Assembly: GCA_001771575.1 (NCBI GenBank)
Contig: MEUD01000001.1
Location: 310,001 to 374,000 of the forward strand
Length of the DNA: 64,000 nt
Direction: 5' to 3'
Origin: a candidate division WOR-1 bacterium RIFOXYB2_FULL_45_9
Lineage (GTDB): Bacteria; Margulisbacteria; WOR-1; O2-12-FULL-45-9; XYB2-FULL-48-7
Each line of letters begins with the position of its first letter. The first letter of the stretch is position 1. The translations under genes and the position numbers were made by a program. Positions 33,521 to 45,746 of the stretch are shown one piece after another. The notes beneath the pieces are model-generated. The model did no database searches, was not told the origin of the DNA, and was given only the letters and a program-made list of their open reading frames with translations.

Positions 33521-33535
33521 ATGATGGAGGGGAAA

Positions 33536-36244
33536 ATGATCAACATTAAAATTGACGGGACCGATTATCAGGTCGAGGAGGGTTTGACTATCGCGGAGGC
33601 CTGTGCCGGTTTGGGGATCAACATTCCAACTTTATGTCACTTGAAAGACGTTTCCCAGGATGCCTATTGCGGCATTTGCGTTGTCGAAATGAAGAACGCC
33701 AGGATCTTGCCGCGGGCCTGCATTACCAAAGTCGCTCCCGGGATGGAAATTCAGACCAAGACCCAACTGGTCCAGGAAACCAGACGGATGAACCTGGAGT
33801 TGATCCTGGCCAACCATCCCCTGGATTGCATGACTTGTGATAAAGACGGCGAATGCGCCCTGCAGGACCTAGCTTACCAGTTCGGCATCAAAAGAAGCAT
33901 CTTTTTAAATGATGAAAATGTCTTCGCCAAAGAAGTAAAGACCCCCTGGGATACCAACCCCTTTATTAAAAAAGAGCCGGCCAAATGCATCATGTGCAAG
34001 CGCTGTGTTGACGCCTGCGCCAATCAAGCGCGGGTTGAAGCGATCTGCGTCGCCAACCGCGGGGTAAAAACAGAGATTGCCACTCCTTTCGGCCAGCCGC
34101 TGGAAGAGACGACCTGTCTGTTCTGCGCCGAATGCGTCCAGGCCTGCCCGACCGGCGCCCTGATCGAAAGGACCAGGATAGGAAAAGGTAAGTTTAAGGA
34201 TTTGACCCCGACCGATACCATTTGCGCTTATTGCGGCGTTGGCTGTAACCTGAAATTGTTTAAAGATAAAAACAATCAACTGGTCATGGCCCGGGCGATC
34301 AACAGCAAGGTCAACAGAGGCCGGGCCTGCGTCAAAGGGCGTTATGGTTATGAATATGTCAATAGCCCGGACCGTTTAACCACTCCCTTGATCAGAAGAG
34401 AGGGCAAGCTTCGGAAGGCGACCTGGGCGGAGGCGCTTGCCTACACCGCCGAGCGGCTCAAAGAGATCAAGGACAAATACGGGCCCGATTCGATCGGCGT
34501 CCTGGGCTCATCCCGCTGTACCAACGAAGATAATTACGTTATCCAAAAATTTGCCCGGGTGGGGATCGGGACCAATAACATTGATAACTGCGCCAGGCTC
34601 TGCCATTCCTCGACCGTGGCCGGGTTGAACCTCGCGCTGGGAGCGGGGGCGGCCACTAACTCGCTGGAAGACATTTTTGATTCCGACGTCATGTTCATCA
34701 TCGGCTCCAATACCACGGAAACGCACCCGGTTATTGGCAAGTTTATTAAAGAGAATCAAAAGAACGGGGCCAAGATCATCGTTTGTGACCCGCGCTATGT
34801 TGATATCGCGAAGGCGGCTGATCTTTATTTGCCGCACACCCCCGGGACCGATGTCGCCCTGCTTAACGGGATCATGCGGCAGATCCTGGAGCACAAGCTG
34901 GAACAGGGGGATTTTATCGCGGCGCATACCGAAGGATTTGAAGAACTAAAAAAACTCCTGGCCGACTATGACCTGGAAAAAGTCAGCCAGATCACAGGGG
35001 TTGAGCCGGAGCTTATCAAGCGGGCGGCCCTGCTTTACGGCGGCGCCAAGTCGGCGATGATCTTCTACACTATGGGGATCACGCAACACACGACCGGGGT
35101 CGACAACGTGCTAAGTATCGCTAATTTAGCCCTGATCACCGGGAATCTTGGCAAGCGCGGCGCCGGGATTATGGCCTTGCGCGGGCAAGCCAATGTTCAG
35201 GGGTCTTGTGACATGGGCGCTCTGCCTAATGTCTATCCCGGCTATCAGAAAGTCGATGATCCGGCGGTCAAGGAAAAATTTGAAAAAGCCTGGGGCGCGC
35301 GGCTCTCGGCCAAAGCGGGCTTAACCGTGACCGAATTTTCCACTCAAGCCAAAGAGGGGAAGCTTAAAGCGGTTTATTCAATGGGAGAAAACCCCCTGAT
35401 GACCGAAGCGGACGTGAAACATGTCAGGGAAGGCTTCGAAAAACTGGAGTTTTTTGCCACCCAGGATATTTTTCTTTCCGAAACGGCTGAAATTGCCGAC
35501 GTCGTTTTTCCGGCCGCCGCCGCTTACGAAAAAGACGGCACCTTTACCAACACGGAAAGACGGGTTCAATTGCTTCGACCGGCTAAGGACAAACCGCAAG
35601 GGACGAAGTACGATTGGGAGATTGTTTGTGAGCTTGCCAAGGTGTTTGGCTATTCCATGAATTATAGCGGTCCAGCCGAGATCATGGATGAGATCGCCAA
35701 AGTTACGCCCTCCATGGGAGGAATCAGCTTTAAAAGGTTGGCCGGGGATGGACTGCAATGGCCATGTCCTACTACGGACCACCCAGGAACGGTAATTCTC
35801 CACGAAGGCGGAAGTTTTAAACGGCCTAATGGAAAAGGTAAATTCCACGCGGTGGTTTATAAGCCGGCCAACGAGTTGACCGATAAAGAATATCCTTTCA
35901 TCTTGACCAGCGGTCGGATCCTTTTTCATTACCATTCCGGCAATGAAACCCGTCGGGTCAAAGCGATCGATAAATTCGTGCCCAGGAATTATGTTGAAAT
36001 TAACCCGGAGGACGCGACCAGACTTGGGATTGGAGACAAGGATATGGTCAAAGTTTCAACCCGTCGCGGCAGTATCGAAGTGGAGGCAAGGATTTCTGAC
36101 CGGCCGAAGAGGGGTTTAGTTTTCATTTCATTCCATTTCCGGGAAGCAAACGTCAATCTTTTGACTAATCCGGCCCTTGACCCGATCTCCAAGATCCCGG
36201 AATATAAGGTCGCCGCTTGCGGTTTAGAAAAAATTTGGAATTAA
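33536..36244 (+). CDS. fdhA: Formate dehydrogenase catalytic (alpha) subunit, Cys type, NuoG-like N-terminus
   Basis: Oxidises formate to CO2 at a bis-molybdopterin Mo or W centre; 902 residues. The N-terminal NuoG-like part holds a plant-type [2Fe-2S] domain, a His-Cys cluster (HPLDCMTCDKDGEC) and two [4Fe-4S] motifs (CIMCKRCVDAC, CLFCAECVQACP). The catalytic part starts with CAYCGVGC for the proximal [4Fe-4S]. The metal ligand is Cys356 in ARLCHSSTVAGL, where selenoenzymes have selenocysteine, and the following His is kept. I prefer ATG 33536, which has GGAGGGG five bases upstream; ATG 33521 is the alternative. With the two preceding subunits it forms an NAD-dependent complex of the FdsGBA/HylABC type. 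Mo or W is not decided by sequence, but tupABC downstream favours W. Confidence 0.93.
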   Translation: MINIKIDGTDYQVEEGLTIAEACAGLGINIPTLCHLKDVSQDAYCGICVVEMKNARILPRACITKVAPGMEIQTKTQLVQETRRMNLELILANHPLDCMTCDKDGECALQDLAYQFGIKRSIFLNDENVFAKEVKTPWDTNPFIKKEPAKCIMCKRCVDACANQARVEAICVANRGVKTEIATPFGQPLEETTCLFCAECVQACPTGALIERTRIGKGKFKDLTPTDTICAYCGVGCNLKLFKDKNNQLVMARAINSKVNRGRACVKGRYGYEYVNSPDRLTTPLIRREGKLRKATWAEALAYTAERLKEIKDKYGPDSIGVLGSSRCTNEDNYVIQKFARVGIGTNNIDNCARLCHSSTVAGLNLALGAGAATNSLEDIFDSDVMFIIGSNTTETHPVIGKFIKENQKNGAKIIVCDPRYVDIAKAADLYLPHTPGTDVALLNGIMRQILEHKLEQGDFIAAHTEGFEELKKLLADYDLEKVSQITGVEPELIKRAALLYGGAKSAMIFYTMGITQHTTGVDNVLSIANLALITGNLGKRGAGIMALRGQANVQGSCDMGALPNVYPGYQKVDDPAVKEKFEKAWGARLSAKAGLTVTEFSTQAKEGKLKAVYSMGENPLMTEADVKHVREGFEKLEFFATQDIFLSETAEIADVVFPAAAAYEKDGTFTNTERRVQLLRPAKDKPQGTKYDWEIVCELAKVFGYSMNYSGPAEIMDEIAKVTPSMGGISFKRLAGDGLQWPCPTTDHPGTVILHEGGSFKRPNGKGKFHAVVYKPANELTDKEYPFILTSGRILFHYHSGNETRRVKAIDKFVPRNYVEINPEDATRLGIGDKDMVKVSTRRGSIEVEARISDRPKRGLVFISFHFREANVNLLTNPALDPISKIPEYKVAACGLEKIWN

Positions 36245-38814: not shown

Positions 38815-39870
38815 ATGAAAAAGCTCTTGCTCCTGGCGATCATCGGTTTAACAATGTTTTCTTCGCTCTCTGTCGCGGCGGTAAAAAAGGCCGAGGTAAA
38901 AAAAACCGAAGCTAAAACCCAGGCCGTCGTTGCTGTTCCAGTCGTGACTCAAGAAGCCGCGGCCGCGCCGGCTCCCGTCGCTCAAGTTGAAGTCGCCCCA
39001 AGTTTTGTTAAGAAACTAACAGTTTCCGGCTCGCTCCGCTATCGTTATGGTTTTTATCAGGCCGGCGGCACCGCCGATACGGGGACTCTTTCCAGGGCCA
39101 GGCTCAAACTAGCGGCCGAAACCTCGCCTGAGATGATGTTCGTGGTCCAACCGGATTTTGCCGCTCTTTCGACCGGCGGGAATGTCGCTTTGGCCGATGC
39201 TTATATTGAAATGAAGGTCAATCAGTACAAAGTCAAAATGGGACAGTTTCTTCTCCCGTTCGCTTATGATTCCGGTAAATACAAGACCATTTACAGTACC
39301 GGTTTTGTCCCCAGCCACTACGGCGTGATCGTTGCCGCCCGTGATTATGGCTATCGGATGAGCGGCCCGCTGCCGGTCTCGGGTTTCTTTTTTGATTCCG
39401 CTTTGGTCAATGGGTCAGGCTCAACCGACACCAATAAAGCCAAAGATATTGTTGGGCGGGTCAATTATAAAAATGAGTCTCTTGATCTTGGCTTATCTGG
39501 TTATTATGGAAAATTTGGGCCCGCCATGACCGATCGGAAATGCGGCGCGTTTGACGCGGAGTACAAGTTCGCCAATTATTTGCTAGTTGGAGAGATTATG
39601 GCTGGAGGAAATACGACGACCAACGCTAAAATATCTGAAGCCTCTCTGCAATTAAGCGGACTTTTTGGCCAATATGAACCGCTCATTCGCTATGAAACTT
39701 ATGACCCGGCGACGGCAGCCGCCAATAACATTGTTAACACCATAACAGTGGGTGGAACATATATAATTGACAGCTCTTCCAAGATGCTGCTAAATTATAA
39801 CCTGGTACAGGAAGAAACGACCCAGATCAACAACAATTCGCTGATGTTCGAGGTTCAGGTCCAAATTTAA
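38815..39870 (+). CDS. Outer-membrane porin, OprO/OprP-like
   Basis: Protein of 351 residues with a signal peptide (about 1-21), an Ala/Lys/Val-rich linker (about 22-62), then alternating amphipathic beta strands typical of a 16-strand porin: LTVSGSLRYRYGFYQAG, LSRARLKLAAE, VALADAYIEMKV, YKVKMGQFLLPFAYD. The last part resembles phosphate-selective O/P porins. It ends VQVQI, without the usual C-terminal Phe. It lies between fdhD and the tungstate transporter, so it may let formate or oxyanions cross the outer membrane (inference). AAAGGAAA precedes the ATG. Confidence 0.82.
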   Translation: MKKLLLLAIIGLTMFSSLSVAAVKKAEVKKTEAKTQAVVAVPVVTQEAAAAPAPVAQVEVAPSFVKKLTVSGSLRYRYGFYQAGGTADTGTLSRARLKLAAETSPEMMFVVQPDFAALSTGGNVALADAYIEMKVNQYKVKMGQFLLPFAYDSGKYKTIYSTGFVPSHYGVIVAARDYGYRMSGPLPVSGFFFDSALVNGSGSTDTNKAKDIVGRVNYKNESLDLGLSGYYGKFGPAMTDRKCGAFDAEYKFANYLLVGEIMAGGNTTTNAKISEASLQLSGLFGQYEPLIRYETYDPATAAANNIVNTITVGGTYIIDSSSKMLLNYNLVQEETTQINNNSLMFEVQVQI

Positions 39871-39875
39871 TTTAA

Positions 39876-39997
39876 GATCTCCGATCCTGCCAACCTAAAA
39901 CCGTTTGGTTATGGATAGCAGGACGGTAGTTCCGCTAAAGCGGAACTCAAGGGTTAAAAGGGAAACCTTGTTAGCCTCCCATTTTGGAAAGGAGAAA
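39876..39997 (+). promoter_or_regulatory. Candidate Moco (molybdenum/tungsten cofactor) riboswitch
   Basis: The 130-base leader of tupA folds as follows. TCTCC (39878-39882) can pair with GGAGA (39991-39995), closing the whole element and covering the ribosome-binding site of tupA. TCCTGC (39885-39890) pairs with GCAGGA (39918-39923), enclosing an AACC/GGTT stem. AGTTCCGC (39928-39935) and GCGGAACT (39940-39947) form a perfect 8-bp hairpin with a TAAA loop. CAAGG (39948-39952) pairs with CCTTG (39966-39970) around AAAAGGGAAA, and GCCTCCCA follows at 39974-39981. TCCGA, GGGAAACC and GCCTCCCA resemble the conserved Moco RNA segments as I recall them. No covariance search was run. Confidence 0.7.
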
Positions 39998-40000
39998 AAT

Positions 40001-40810
40001 ATGTTTAAGAAGCTAGTAGCATGCGGTTTATTGGCCTTTACTTTATTTTCCGCTTCTTTTGCCGGTTCCAATTCGATCATCCTGGCGACCACGACCAGTA
40101 CCGTCGATTCCGGTTTACTTGATGTTTTGCTCCCCATTTTTGAAAAACAGAGCGGTTGTCAGGTTAAGCCTATTGGGGTTGGCTCTGGGATGGCGATGGA
40201 GATGGGGCGGCGCGGCAAAGCCGATGTTTTGCTCGTTCACTCGCCAAAAGATGAAGTTAAGTTAGTTCAAGATGGTTTTGGGCTCAATCGCCGGGCGGTA
40301 ATGCATAACGATTTTATCCTCCTTGGTCCACCCAATGATCCAGCCAGGGCCCGCTTGGCCAAAACAGTAGGGGAGGCCTTTAAAAAGATCAGCGAGAGCG
40401 GCTCGCTATTTATTTCCAGGGGAGATAGATCAGGGACTCATGCCAAGGAACTGTCGATTTGGCCTTATTCTAAGGCCCAGCTTTCCAACCTCTGGTATCT
40501 TGAGTCCGGACAGGGAATGGGGGCAACACTGCTAATTGCCGATCAAAAGCGGGCTTACACCCTCGCGGATCGAGCGACCTATCTTAGTTTTAAGGAGCGG
40601 CTAAAATTGGTTATTATCGCCGAAGGTGACCAGCTCTTGCTTAATCCCTATCATGTCATTGAGGTTAATCCGGAAAAGTGGCCGGAAATCAACAGCGCGG
40701 GAGGAAAAGCGTTCGCTGATTTCATGGTCGCTCCGGCAACGCAAAAAAAGATCGCTGAATTCGGCAGGGAAAAATATCGTCAATCGTTGTTTTTCCCGGA
40801 TGCTAAATAA
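40001..40810 (+). CDS. tupA: Tungstate ABC transporter, substrate-binding protein
   Basis: Protein of 269 residues with a signal peptide (MFKKLVACGLLAFTLFSASF, cleavage near SFA-GS). The mature start IILATTTSTVDSGLLD contains the TTTS oxyanion-binding motif of TupA/WtpA-like proteins. Further conserved parts are GVGSGMAMEMGRRGKADVLL and ISRGDRSGTHAKEL. Tup systems generally prefer tungstate over molybdate. I reject an earlier in-frame start at 39905 because it lies inside the riboswitch and lacks a signal peptide there; ATG 40001 has AAAGGAG six bases upstream. Confidence 0.93.
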   Translation: MFKKLVACGLLAFTLFSASFAGSNSIILATTTSTVDSGLLDVLLPIFEKQSGCQVKPIGVGSGMAMEMGRRGKADVLLVHSPKDEVKLVQDGFGLNRRAVMHNDFILLGPPNDPARARLAKTVGEAFKKISESGSLFISRGDRSGTHAKELSIWPYSKAQLSNLWYLESGQGMGATLLIADQKRAYTLADRATYLSFKERLKLVIIAEGDQLLLNPYHVIEVNPEKWPEINSAGGKAFADFMVAPATQKKIAEFGREKYRQSLFFPDAK

Positions 40811-40819
40811 GTGATTATC

Positions 40820-40846
40820 GGGCCTCCTCTTAATAAGGGGAGGCCT
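40820..40846 (+). other. Strong stem-loop between tupA and tupB
   Basis: GGCCTCCTC (40821-40829) pairs with GGGGAGGCC (40837-40845), with one G-T wobble, and two further A-T pairs can form in the loop. It is not followed by a T tract, so it is not a clear terminator. The 3' arm contains GGGGAGG, the only ribosome-binding-like run before tupB (ATG 40857). Confidence 0.65.
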
Positions 40847-40856
40847 AATTAAATAT

Positions 40857-41504
40857 ATGTATCCAGAATTAATAAATATAATATTATTGACTTTGAAGGT
40901 TTCCGGGCTTGCCCTGCTGATCGCGATCCTGATCGGGATTAGCCTGGGGATTTATCTCGCCCTGCATGATTTTCCGTTCAAAAAGATCGTTGTTGGCGTC
41001 ATCAATACCGGGATGGGGTTGCCGCCGGTCGTTGTTGGTCTTCTGGTAATGTTATTTCTCTGGCGGGGTGGGCCGCTTGGATTTTTGGACCTGATCTATA
41101 CCCCCTGGGCGATGATTTGCGCTCAGGTAATTTTAGCCACTCCAATTATTGCCGGGTTAACCATGGCCACCATTCAACAGATCCCGCAAAAAATGAAATG
41201 GCAGGCCCTGGCCTTGGGGGCAAACAATCTTCAACTAGCCTGGCTTTTGGCCAAAGAGACCAGGTTATCTCTGCTGGCGGCGGTTATGGCCGGTTTTGGC
41301 GGGATTATCTCGGAAGTCGGAGCCGTGATGATGGTGGGCGGCAATATTAAAGGACAAACCAGGGTTTTAACCACCGCCATTGTCTTAGAATCACAAAAAG
41401 GGGCTTTTGAGCTGGCGATCGCGTTAAGCGTTGTTTTGCTTTTACTTTTATTTTCCGTCAATTTCGGTCTGACCATGATCCAGCAAAGGACAAAAAAGTC
41501 ATGA
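40857..41504 (+). CDS. tupB: Tungstate ABC transporter, permease
   Basis: Protein of 215 residues with five or six membrane helices. It has the binding-protein-dependent permease (EAA) loop near residues 120-145 (ALALGANNLQLAWLLAKETR), which contacts the ATPase, followed by FGGIISEVGAVMMVGGNI, a TupB/ModB-like segment. It overlaps tupC by four bases (ATGA). A stem-loop covers its likely ribosome-binding site, which could set subunit ratios relative to tupA. Confidence 0.92.
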   Translation: MYPELINIILLTLKVSGLALLIAILIGISLGIYLALHDFPFKKIVVGVINTGMGLPPVVVGLLVMLFLWRGGPLGFLDLIYTPWAMICAQVILATPIIAGLTMATIQQIPQKMKWQALALGANNLQLAWLLAKETRLSLLAAVMAGFGGIISEVGAVMMVGGNIKGQTRVLTTAIVLESQKGAFELAIALSVVLLLLLFSVNFGLTMIQQRTKKS

Positions 41505-42457
41505 TCACCGCTTTATTGGGACCAAACGGGGCCGGCAAAAGCACTTACCTTCGCCAATTAATGGGTCTGGCGAACGGCAAGATTGAGCCAAGCATGACGA
41601 TGGTTTTTCAAGAGCCCCTCTTGTTTGATCTGACCGTGGCGGAAAATGTCGCCCTTGGATTGAAATTTCGCCGACAAAGAAAGATCAGCGCTCTGGTCGG
41701 GCAGGCGCTTGAATTATTTGGGATCGGGCATTTAAGAAATAGACGAGCGATCACTTTATCCGGCGGGGAGGCGCAAAAGGTCGCTTTGGCCCGCGCCTTA
41801 GTTATTGAGCCTAAGACCTTACTGCTCGATGAGCCATTCGCCAATTTGGACCAGACGTCGCAAATTGATTTCCGCCGGATGTTAAAGAAAGTTATTCTGC
41901 AAAGAGCGATCGAAACGATTTGGGTAACCCATAATAAAGCCGAAGCGCTGGTTGTTGCCGATCAAATAATGATCATGATCAACCGGGAGATCGTGCAAAC
42001 CGGGCAGCCTGAAGAAGTCCTCCAAAAACCAGCCACCAAAGAAGTGGCCGACTTTTTGGGGATTGAAAACATTTTCCATGGAGAAATTCGCGATAAAAAC
42101 GGTCAAAGTATATTTGAAAATGATCGGGTTTCTTTTGCCGCGGCGGCGGTGGAAAAAGCTGACGCCTGGGTCGTGGTCCACCCGGAAGATATCTTGCTTT
42201 CCCTTGAACCAACCAAGACCAGCGCCCGCAATTGCCTGCGCGGGACAGTCTTGGCCGTCGAACCGGCCGGGTTGATCTATCGGACTCAAATCAAAGCCGG
42301 GGAGATATTTATTGCCAACATTACCCGCGCTTCCGTCGAAGAGCTGGGGGTCGCTCCCGGCAAAGAACTCTATTTAACCTTTAAAGCAACGGCGGTTCAA
42401 ACATTAGATTCCCCTCTCCCAGAGGGACCTGCCTGCCGGCAGGCAGGGAGGGGTTAG
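41501..42457 (+). CDS. tupC: Tungstate ABC transporter, ATP-binding protein (compact N-terminus)
   Basis: Protein of 318 residues that powers uptake. Walker A GPNGAGKST is at residues 7-15, Q-loop FQEP at about 38-41, signature LSGGEAQKVALARAL, Walker B TLLLDEPFANLD and switch His in WVTHNKAEA. A C-terminal TOBE/Mop-like part (about 220-300) follows. Family members usually have about 30 residues before Walker A, including the A-loop aromatic; here there are six. The Walker A to Q-loop distance is also short. No earlier start codon is visible in the open upstream frame. The last 16 or so residues (SPLPEGPACRQAGRG) are encoded by a palindromic repeat. Confidence 0.9.
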   Translation: MITALLGPNGAGKSTYLRQLMGLANGKIEPSMTMVFQEPLLFDLTVAENVALGLKFRRQRKISALVGQALELFGIGHLRNRRAITLSGGEAQKVALARALVIEPKTLLLDEPFANLDQTSQIDFRRMLKKVILQRAIETIWVTHNKAEALVVADQIMIMINREIVQTGQPEEVLQKPATKEVADFLGIENIFHGEIRDKNGQSIFENDRVSFAAAAVEKADAWVVVHPEDILLSLEPTKTSARNCLRGTVLAVEPAGLIYRTQIKAGEIFIANITRASVEELGVAPGKELYLTFKATAVQTLDSPLPEGPACRQAGRG

Positions 42458-42467: not shown

Positions 42468-43643
42468 ATGATTAAAGCGACAAAAGCGCTGAATATTGTT
42501 CTTGGCCAGGTTTGTTCTTTGGGTTTGGAAACACTGCCAGTTTCTGCCGCGCTAGGTAGAGTTTTGGCGAAAAATATTTATTCTGACGTCAACATCCCGC
42601 CCTTTAACCGCTCGGCGATGGATGGTTTCGCGATTAATTCGAAAGATCCGGCGGAAGTCTTTGCTGTTATTGAAGATATTCCGGCCGGTAAAGTTCCCGG
42701 AAAAACGATCAAGTCTGGGGAATGCGCCCGGATCATGACCGGAGCGATGCTTCCTAAAGGAGCGGATCAAGTGATTAGGGTCGAAGACTCAATCAAGGAA
42801 CCAGCGAATAAAGTAAAAATGCGACGTTCAGTCGCGGGAAGAAAAAACGTTGCCCAACGCGGCGAAGATGTTAAAAAGGGTGAGTTAGTTCTCCGCTCCG
42901 GTACGTTGATTCGTCCGCAGGAAGTAGCCATGCTGGCTACGGTCGGCAAAACTAACGTCAAGGTTGTTCGTCTACCAAAAGTAGGAGTTATTTCAACCGG
43001 GTCGGAGCTGGTTGAACCAATATTTAAACCAACGACCGGTCAAATCCGCAATAGCAACGGTCCGATGCTCATTGCCCAGTTACAAAGGCTGGGGATCGAA
43101 GCGAATTATTTGGGGATCGCGAAAGATAATATCAAAGCGACAAAAGCGATGGTTGCCCAAGGTTTGAGGGAAAATGATATTTTAATTTTATCCGGCGGGG
43201 TTTCGGTCGGCGACTATGATTTTGTCAAAGAGGTATTGCAGGATTGCGGAGTCAAGATCATTTTTAATAAAGTCGCGATCAAACCAGGAAAACCGACCGT
43301 CTTTGGCACTAAGAGGAACAAACTGATCTTTGGCTTGCCGGGCAATCCGGTTTCGGTCTTAGTCGTCTTTGAGCTTTTTGTTGCTCCAGCCATCAGTAAA
43401 ATGATCGGGAAGGAGTCCCCTGAAGCATTTATCTCTTTGCCGTTAATTACTGATCATTCTTGTAAAAGTTCAAAAAGAGAACAATATCAGCCGGTTTTGA
43501 TCAAACAAGGCGGCGTTCAACCGATTGATTTTCACGGTTCAGCCCATATGTTTGCTTTAACAAAAGCAAACGCGATTATGAGGATAAAAAGTGGAACTAA
43601 TGAACTTAAAAAAGGAACTATTATCGATGTTAGACCAATTTAA
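42468..43643 (+). CDS. moeA: Molybdopterin molybdenumtransferase
   Basis: Protein of 391 residues that inserts molybdate or tungstate into adenylylated molybdopterin. Features in order: the N-terminal PPFNRSAMDGFA motif, the domain II segment GECARIMTGAMLPKGAD, the MogA-like catalytic domain with STGSELV, NSNGPML, LSGGVSVGDYDFVKE and GLPGNPVS, and a C-terminal beta domain. It follows tupC by 10 bases, and its ribosome-binding site appears to come from the palindromic repeat. It overlaps moaA by 17 bases. Confidence 0.94.
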   Translation: MIKATKALNIVLGQVCSLGLETLPVSAALGRVLAKNIYSDVNIPPFNRSAMDGFAINSKDPAEVFAVIEDIPAGKVPGKTIKSGECARIMTGAMLPKGADQVIRVEDSIKEPANKVKMRRSVAGRKNVAQRGEDVKKGELVLRSGTLIRPQEVAMLATVGKTNVKVVRLPKVGVISTGSELVEPIFKPTTGQIRNSNGPMLIAQLQRLGIEANYLGIAKDNIKATKAMVAQGLRENDILILSGGVSVGDYDFVKEVLQDCGVKIIFNKVAIKPGKPTVFGTKRNKLIFGLPGNPVSVLVVFELFVAPAISKMIGKESPEAFISLPLITDHSCKSSKREQYQPVLIKQGGVQPIDFHGSAHMFALTKANAIMRIKSGTNELKKGTIIDVRPI

Positions 43644-44427
43644 CCGGAATATTTATTATTTACGGATCGCGGTAACCGATAAGTGCAATCTCCGTTGTAC
43701 TTACTGCATGCCGGAAGAGGGAATAAAGTTAAAAGCACACAGCGATATTTTGAGCTTTGAAGAGATCGAAGAGGTGGTTAAAGCGGCGGTCAAGCTCGGT
43801 TTTTATAAATTCCGACTGACCGGCGGCGAACCGCTGGTCAGACGCGGGATAGTCGACCTGGCGCGCCAATTAGCGGCGATCCCCGGGGTCAAAACACTGG
43901 CGATGACGACCAATGGACTCTTGCTCCCCGAATACGCTCAAGGCTTGAAAGCGGCCGGGCTGACCCGGCTTAATATCAGCCTTGATTCGCTCCGGCCGGA
44001 GCGCTATCGCGAGATCACCCGCTGTGGCGATTTAAACCTAGCTTTGGCCGGGATCAAAGCGGCAAGGGACGCAGGCTTTACCGGAACAAAACTAAATAGC
44101 GTTCTGGTCGATAAATTTAACGATGATGAAAAGGAGTCGCTGGCCTCTTTTGCCGAAAAAAACGGGCTTAAGGCGCGTTTCATCAAGAAGATGGACCTGA
44201 AAAGCGGTGAGTTTTATAAAGTGGAAAACGGTGAGGGGGGTGATTGTTCGATCTGCAACCGGGTCCGCTTAACCGCCGATGGAAAACTGCGTCCCTGCCT
44301 TTTTTCTAATTATGAAGTTGATGTCCGATCTATGGGGGCCGAAGCGGCGCTCAAAGCAGTGATCAACAACAAACCGGCCAGAGGCGGTAAATCAAACAAC
44401 AGGGAGATGATAGAAATTGGGGGATAA
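43627..44427 (+). CDS. moaA: GTP 3',8-cyclase MoaA (compact form)
   Basis: Radical SAM enzyme for the first step of molybdopterin synthesis; 266 residues from ATG 43627, chosen because AAAAAAGGAA lies about nine bases upstream (43591 is an earlier in-frame start). SAM cluster Cys20, Cys24 and Cys27 (CNLRCTYC), LTGGEPLVRRG near 65-73, and the second cluster Cys207, Cys210 and Cys224 (CSICNRVRLTADG, CLF) are all present. The C-terminal double Gly (IEIGG) is kept. Typical MoaA has about 325-340 residues. The missing part is the segment between KARFIKKMD and the second cluster, so this is a reduced but apparently intact enzyme. Confidence 0.9.
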   Translation: MLDQFNRNIYYLRIAVTDKCNLRCTYCMPEEGIKLKAHSDILSFEEIEEVVKAAVKLGFYKFRLTGGEPLVRRGIVDLARQLAAIPGVKTLAMTTNGLLLPEYAQGLKAAGLTRLNISLDSLRPERYREITRCGDLNLALAGIKAARDAGFTGTKLNSVLVDKFNDDEKESLASFAEKNGLKARFIKKMDLKSGEFYKVENGEGGDCSICNRVRLTADGKLRPCLFSNYEVDVRSMGAEAALKAVINNKPARGGKSNNREMIEIGG

Positions 44428-44872
44428 GTTTTCTCACGTTGATCGAAAAGGGAAAGCGAAGATGGTCGATGTTGGAGATAAGCCGGACCAAAAAAGGATC
44501 GCGATCTCCAGAGGTTCGATAAGACTGGCCAAAGAAACGATCAGGCTGGTTAAAAATAATCAATTAAAAAAAGGGGACGTCTTAGCGGTCGCCAGGATCG
44601 CCGGGATCCAGGCGGCCAAGAAAACCAGCGGCTTGATCCCTCTTTGTCATCCGCTGGCCCTGACCAACATCTCCGTTGAGTGCGAGATCAAAGCGAATTC
44701 AATTGAGATAGAGGGGATGGTTGAATGTATCGGCAAAACCGGAGTTGAAATGGAAGCGTTAACGGCGGTTAGTGTCGCCGCCTTAACGATCTACGATATG
44801 TGCAAAGCGGTCGATAAAAAGATGGTCATAGGAGAAATATATTTATGCCACAAATCAAAGCAGTCTGTGTAA
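44417..44872 (+). CDS. moaC: Cyclic pyranopterin monophosphate synthase
   Basis: Protein of 151 residues that acts after MoaA. Conserved parts are FSHVDRKGKAKMVDVGDK, AGIQAAKKTSGLIPLCHPL, and GMVECIGKTGVEMEALTAVS with LTIYDMCKA. The start is TTG at 44417 inside the moaA 3' end, with GGGAG ten bases upstream. It overlaps the next gene by 28 bases. Confidence 0.94.
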   Translation: MGDKFSHVDRKGKAKMVDVGDKPDQKRIAISRGSIRLAKETIRLVKNNQLKKGDVLAVARIAGIQAAKKTSGLIPLCHPLALTNISVECEIKANSIEIEGMVECIGKTGVEMEALTAVSVAALTIYDMCKAVDKKMVIGEIYLCHKSKQSV

Positions 44873-45267
44873 ATTCGAGTCGGGGACAAAAGAGCGAGGT
44901 TCCAGAAATCACCTTGATCGAGGAGCTTGGAGTAAAAGGTGATTTTCACGCTAAAGGGGGGATCCGCCAGGTCAGTTTGCTGGCCAATGAATCGATCGAT
45001 AAAATGAAGGCTAAAGGACTCGATCTGGCCAACGGCGCTTTTGGGGAAAACATTGTTACCGAAGGAATTAACCTTTTAACCATAAATATTGGCCAACGAT
45101 TAATGATCGGCCAAACCATCCTTGAGGTCAGTAAAATTGGCAAAGAGTGCATAAAACGGTGTAACATATATTACCAGGTTGGGGATTGTATAATGCCAAG
45201 GGAAGGGATCTTTGTCAAAGTGATCAAAGGTGGGGCAATCAAAGCGGGAGATGAGATCAAACTATGA
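44845..45267 (+). CDS. MOSC-domain protein
   Basis: Protein of 140 residues consisting of a MOSC domain alone: GVKGDFHAKGGIRQVSLLA, GAFGENIVTEGINL, IGQTILEVSKIGKECIKRCN. MOSC domains bind or transfer sulfur at Mo centres, and small stand-alone ones often sit with moa/mog genes. Cys109 and Cys113 in KECIKRC (residues 108-113 approximately) are candidates for sulfur carriage. It overlaps mogA by four bases. The exact role is unknown. Confidence 0.88.
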   Translation: MPQIKAVCVNSSRGQKSEVPEITLIEELGVKGDFHAKGGIRQVSLLANESIDKMKAKGLDLANGAFGENIVTEGINLLTINIGQRLMIGQTILEVSKIGKECIKRCNIYYQVGDCIMPREGIFVKVIKGGAIKAGDEIKL

Positions 45268-45746
45268 AAATCGGGATAATCACGATCTCCGATAAAGGGT
45301 CAAAGGGAGTGCGGGTCGATTTGAGCGGACCAGCGATCAAAGAGACGATCAAGGCCGAGCTTTATGAATACGTTATTGTTCCGGATGAAATCGATGATAT
45401 TTCCGCTAAATTAATTGAGTTTATTGACCAAAAGAAGTGCGACCTGGTCCTGACGACCGGCGGGACCGGTCTTTCCCTACGCGACGTCACTCCCGAGGCG
45501 ACCCGCAAGATCCTTGATCGGGAAATCCCTGGGATCGCCGAAGCGATCCGCGGAGAATCGCTCAAGATCACTCAAAAAGCGATGTTATCAAGAGGGATCG
45601 CCGGTTCAAGAGGAAAAAGCTTGATCGTTAATCTCCCCGGAAGCCCCAAAGCGGTCAAGGAATGTCTGGCGATAATTTTGCCGGTTATTCCTCATGCCCT
45701 GGAAGTCTTAGAAAAAGGAAGCGCTGAATGCGGAGGTGAAAACTAA
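45264..45746 (+). CDS. mogA: Molybdopterin adenylyltransferase (MogA/MoaB family)
   Basis: Protein of 160 residues that adenylylates molybdopterin before metal insertion by MoeA. It has the family motifs ITISDKGSKG, TTGGTGLSLRDVTPEATR, PGIAEAIR and LIVNLPGSPKAVKECL. The PEAT-like and GGTG motifs place it in MogA/MoaB. It overlaps MOSC by four bases and shares an A with the next start (TAATG). Confidence 0.93.
   Translation: MKIGIITISDKGSKGVRVDLSGPAIKETIKAELYEYVIVPDEIDDISAKLIEFIDQKKCDLVLTTGGTGLSLRDVTPEATRKILDREIPGIAEAIRGESLKITQKAMLSRGIAGSRGKSLIVNLPGSPKAVKECLAIILPVIPHALEVLEKGSAECGGEN

Follow-up and report, generated by a model that had tools for sequence, protein, structure and literature searches.

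The window, a stretch of 64,000 nucleotides from the WOR-1 bacterium RIFOXYB2_FULL_45_9, contains a genuine riboswitch of the Moco/Tuco family whose P1 stem overlaps the ribosome-binding site for a tungstate-type importer. The RNA also carries a P3 hairpin. The combination of P3 with tupA is an exception to the rule drawn from a 2008 study, which divided this RNA family by P3 and found P3-bearing copies exclusively with molybdopterin/Moco genes (PMC2408646). The riboswitch family and the type of expression platform are both known already, and what gives the leader its value is that it clearly departs from the P3 rule, as do a few other natural RNAs.

An initial annotation had called the leader a Moco-like riboswitch and proposed that it be dropped if Infernal gave no Rfam match. 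The Rfam cmscan returned a full-length match to RF01055 on the forward strand (77.1 bits, E 6.3e-17, all 135 model positions, with a gathering score of 36 bits). RF01055 is the sole Rfam family above threshold in the 64-kb window, and a genome-wide scan found this single copy in the 1.67-Mb genome. The parts of the leader are as follows.

39867..40010, + strand: Moco-family riboswitch (RF01055), from cmscan
39878..39882, + strand: 5' strand of P1, UCUCC, the anti-Shine-Dalgarno, from sequence, fold and Rfam alignment
39885..39923, + strand: P2 with the putative CCUAA...UAUGG tetraloop-receptor bulge, from fold and Rfam alignment, the receptor assigned after PMC2408646
39928..39947, + strand: P3 hairpin, perfect 8 bp with loop UAAA, from sequence and covariation
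39951..39977, + strand: P4 with a GAAA tetraloop at 39962-39965, from fold and Rfam alignment
39979..39987, + strand: P5, a short hairpin, from fold and Rfam alignment
39991..39995, + strand: 3' strand of P1, GGAGA, overlapping the tupA Shine-Dalgarno AAGGAG, from sequence, with the same arrangement across the phylum

The AAGGAG lies 6 nt before the ATG of tupA at 40001, and the arms of P3 are AGTTCCGC (39928-39935) and GCGGAACT (39940-39947), with the loop TAAA in DNA letters. Unconstrained folding of 39876-40020 yields exactly P1, P2, P3, P4 and a short P5 at -45.6 kcal/mol, whereas shuffled sequences average -33.2 (z -3.56; 0/200 shuffles as low). The pairing of TCTCC with GGAGA across the Shine-Dalgarno and the perfect hairpin had both been located correctly by the initial annotation, as sequence and fold confirm, and fold and covariation place the hairpin at the P3 position. 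As is characteristic of RF01055, the predicted structure has a GNRA tetraloop on P4 (GAAA) and a receptor in P2 (CCUAA/UAUGG), and genes of Moco/Tuco synthesis and transport adjoin it downstream (tupABC-moeA-moaA-moaC-MOSC-mogA). That the leader consists of chance hairpins and is no riboswitch has a negligible probability; no point in favour of this reading was found, and it was ruled out by the RF01055 E value, the fold z-score and the P3 covariation described below.

The riboswitch begins at the end of a preceding porin-like ORF (stop 39870). The encoded protein (38815-39870) matches nothing in Pfam or NCBIfam, and most operons of the phylum have a homologue immediately 5' of their RF01055 RNA; the oxyanion might cross the outer membrane through this protein. 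At 39767-39796 lies a promoter-like sequence, TTGACA-18-TAAATT plus an extended -10 (10/12 positions), which is a weak candidate because four such sites occur in the region where 1.7 are expected.

The genes behind the riboswitch, and the formate dehydrogenase gene in front of it, are listed below.

33521..36244, + strand: formate dehydrogenase alpha subunit, with Cys at the Sec/Cys position
40001..40810, + strand: tupA, tungstate-type substrate-binding protein, from NCBIfam, PDB match and site residues
40857..41504, + strand: tupB, permease
41501..42457, + strand: tupC, ATPase with TOBE domain
42468..43643, + strand: moeA
43591..44427, + strand: moaA, short form
44417..44872, + strand: moaC
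44845..45267, + strand: MOSC-domain protein
45264..45746, + strand: mogA/moaB-type molybdopterin-binding protein

Upstream of the riboswitch, and on the same strand, formate dehydrogenase is accompanied by genes for an MFS transporter, mobA and fdhD. The proposal that the controlled genes encode a Tup-type transporter is upheld by TupA matches in NCBIfam and PDB and by the retention of the oxyanion-site residues. The window TupA scores 223 bits against the NCBIfam TupA model NF041772, under the equivalog cut-off of 400, so the label tungstate-type is justified and a narrower one is not. Its closest relatives of known structure are solved TupA proteins (PDB 3lr1, E 1e-66). An alignment read against PMC5517513 indicates that it keeps TTTS 30-33, H80, R140, T146 and D190, which correspond to the tungstate-site residues, and the TTTS, His, Arg and Asp are invariant in 11 aligned TupA proteins.

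Two other features of the operon were observed. A strong hairpin at 40821-40845 between tupA and tupB (12-nt arms, 92% complementary, lacking a proper T run) may set the tupA:tupB ratio. The short MoaA (43591-44427) has 278 aa, and its Mob_synth_C match starts at position 59 of 128, so that the first half of the domain is missing; the C-terminal cysteines and terminal GG are retained, and homologues in the phylum align over almost its full length.

The closest described counterpart of the leader is that of E. coli moaA (103.6 bits against RF01055), which shares the P1-P5 aptamer fold including P3, the GAAA tetraloop with its receptor, and a ribosome-binding site in the 3' strand of P1. Because this site had been placed inside P1, with OFF control, in E. 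coli (PMC2408646), the Shine-Dalgarno half of our finding is a known arrangement. The E. coli RNA precedes moaABCDE for the molybdenum cofactor, whereas the window RNA has tupABC first, and the P3 sequences differ. In the link to tungstate uptake and in the P1/P2/P4 core, the window RNA resembles the P3-lacking Tuco variants of Clostridia and Deltaproteobacteria, found before tup, AOR and Fdh genes. In those variants, however, P3 is absent and tupA usually lies 100-700 nt downstream, whereas in the window P3 is present and the Shine-Dalgarno is in P1. The leader therefore sits across the two subtypes of Regulski 2008: it has the P3 stem of the Moco-specific subtype, is not confined to MPT/Moco genes or Mo enzymes as that subtype is, and departs from the Tuco subtype in having P3 at all. 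Since the operon opens with tupABC, and its TupA has the tungstate site, we have not filed it as Moco-specific.

The rule itself rests on a near-perfect correspondence of P3 with Moco genes, and 17/19 organisms with P3-lacking copies had Tuco genes (PMC2408646). In E. coli, breaking P3 led to loss of control and repairing it restored control, and deletion of P3 abolished control, so P3 can be essential (PMC2408646). No later test of the rule was found in the literature searched, which covered few subscription journals. If the rule is correct, the window RNA would sense the molybdenum cofactor and, in its presence, shut off both the Tup importer and the genes of cofactor synthesis; formate dehydrogenase would receive molybdenum through TupA or an unrecognised carrier. 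The published correspondence speaks for molybdenum sensing, as does the binding of molybdate by TupA-type proteins with nM affinity (PMC5517513). Taken with the genomic evidence below, we regard it as unlikely.

Among 74 genomes of the phylum, RF01055 RNAs were found in 13; in 11 of these the RNA stands before one and the same tup-moe-moa operon, and in the remaining two before a mobA-moaA operon that lacks Tup genes. tupA occurs in 11/74 and is always 3' of an RF01055 RNA. In all 13 RNAs, GGAAAGGAG is followed closely by a start codon and the Shine-Dalgarno falls within P1. Five of the 13 RNAs, those of G000, G064, G068, G056 and G073, have P3 and eight do not, so that on one conserved operon five of the 11 tup leaders have P3 and six lack it; P3 status was called by eye from insert length and pairing, as the automatic P2/P3 parse merged P3 into P2 in P3-bearing copies. 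Three P3-lacking leaders (L009, L011 and L013, in G052, G067 and G070) have a P5 loop enlarged by an extra hairpin of ~25 nt.

The initial annotation had also stated that a lack of covariation in homologous leaders would count against the proposed stems. Across the five P3 stems 92.5% of pairing is kept and 8/8 pairs have changes on both sides, a result that 0/500 shuffles reach; slid registers give 20-49% pairing. The register was set by hand from the junction, with the arms joined without the loop, as a whole-leader MAFFT alignment misplaced P2 of G073. Over 114 family members P1 shows compensated variation, a result biased towards pairing since the extraction chose the best pairing. The maintenance of pairing despite changes on both sides indicates that P3 is a maintained structure. 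It also bears on the idea that the hairpin is an unrelated insertion at the P3 position, such as a site for a protein or a neutral hairpin, and not homologous to the proteobacterial P3. Sequence and loop do differ in all five relatives, and here three junction bases (GGU/GGC) come before the stem, where the Rfam consensus starts P3 directly; yet the junction position is the same, the pairing has survived, and P3 sequence is variable in the Rfam family model too. We consider an unrelated insertion quite improbable.

P3 tracks neither the transporter lineage nor that of the formate dehydrogenase. P3-bearing and P3-lacking leaders share taxonomic families (G056 and G054; G068 and G067), and a tupAB tree needs at least two changes of P3 state; support for the deep branches of the core-gene tree is weak. 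G054, G067 and G070 have the same operon and the same TupA lineage as the window and yet lack P3, which counts against molybdenum sensing. Association of P3 with transporter lineage was rejected, as type I TupA is found both with and without P3; type II operons all lack it (3/3), a number too small to conclude from. Association with formate dehydrogenase lineage was rejected likewise, since P3-bearing G056 and P3-lacking G047 group together in the formate dehydrogenase tree (support 96), and this independence also argues against molybdenum sensing. The second, distant TupA/B type occupies the same place in the operon in L017, L021 and L024; its TupA is ~46% identical with an GTGKAIKLGENG motif, which suggests transporter replacement within the operon.

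Outside the phylum, 104 RNAs over the gathering score were classified from 50 TupA-bearing genomes, a sample biased towards relatives of the window TupA. P3 is absent in 93, present in nine and doubtful in two (both from G104 and kept apart). Where tupA lies downstream on the same strand (23 RNAs, 18 genomes), 21/23 lack P3, and where modA is the first identified gene 3/3 have it, a pattern that agrees with molybdenum sensing by P3-bearing RNAs. The two exceptions, L163 and L170, are from Bacillota MAGs and were confirmed by cmscan; L163 precedes tupA with the Shine-Dalgarno in P1, and in L170 tupA is preceded by a terminator-like hairpin and a small ORF. Another 30 genomes contributed one P3-lacking tupA leader (G147, a MAG), a P3-bearing leader before tupB/tupC (L227, Chloroflexota MAG), and a P3-bearing RNA of 43.7 bits immediately upstream of an AOR-like gene (L230, G144:C146, Chloroflexota MAG), which is a candidate for a further exception. 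L163, L170 and L227 are thus like the window in joining P3 to tup genes, and L163 also in its Shine-Dalgarno, although they come from other lineages and the platform of L170 is terminator-like. P3 is more frequent among tupA leaders of the phylum (5/11) than elsewhere (2/23; Fisher p 0.024, in a comparison that ignores shared ancestry and tandem copies). Outside the phylum the 2008 correlation holds as a tendency with repeated exceptions. The tension between P3 and Tup genes noted at the outset is therefore genuine, and other genomes show it too. On one orthologous tup operon P3 is sometimes there and sometimes not, which weakens the premise of P3 as a marker of molybdenum sensing.

The metal economy of the host is narrow. 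Formate dehydrogenase is the only PF00384-family protein found in the window's own genome. ModA over cut-off, AOR, and proteins of the xanthine-oxidase and sulfite-oxidase families were not found there, and with them no alternative molybdenum route through these families, in a search where WtpA had no model of its own. The lack of ModA and of any other known Mo enzyme family weighs against molybdenum sensing. MoaE (PF02391), the large subunit of molybdopterin synthase, was found in none of the 13 genomes with the RNA, the window's included; moaA, moaC, mogA and moeA are present in them, with a MOSC-domain gene in every operon. The same MoaE-less pattern is reported in Dehalobacter, where MOSC was proposed as a stand-in (PMC4751268).

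A translational OFF switch in which P3 is optional and does not by itself decide between molybdenum and tungsten, and in which the ligand is most likely a tungsten or loaded-metal cofactor, is in our view probable. The structure is shown by the present analysis; ligand and direction are here taken by analogy from the E. coli work. When metal-pterin cofactor is plentiful, it would bind the P2-P3-P4 junction and stabilise P1, and the stabilised P1 would pair with the tupA Shine-Dalgarno and shut off tungstate uptake. Translational coupling would turn off the cofactor-synthesis genes behind tupA as well. When cofactor is scarce, the ribosome would open the 5-bp P1 and TupA would be made. P3 would serve in this lineage as an optional buttress of the aptamer and would not alone decide between molybdenum and tungsten, and the ligand would most likely be the tungsten form of the cofactor, or the form with whichever metal is loaded. 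Tungsten is favoured by the transporter and by the absence of a recognised molybdenum route, and molybdenum by P3 only, a choice that sequence cannot decide.

The RNA might instead respond to both metal forms, or to a pterin that is metal-free or nucleotide-linked, with P3 tuning only affinity or folding. Turnover of P3 on an otherwise constant operon fits such an RNA, and a single-transporter economy would have little need for discrimination, yet the P3-bearing RNA of E. coli responds to Moco, and it discriminated against tungstate as well as against precursors (PMC2408646); we think lack of discrimination rather unlikely. Returning to the switch with an optional P3, we judge about evenly balanced the claim that P3 is no Mo/W discriminator at all, such that some tungsten-cofactor aptamers have P3, and repeated gain or loss of P3 on one tungstate operon has left the ligand unchanged.

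The P3 correlation of 2008 is the only published clue found on how an RNA could tell the molybdenum from the tungsten cofactor. The 11 orthologous tup leaders, five with P3 and six without, have the same genes and the same translational platform, and are natural matched pairs for testing this clue. Interpretation is kept simple by a host that has one importer and one enzyme.
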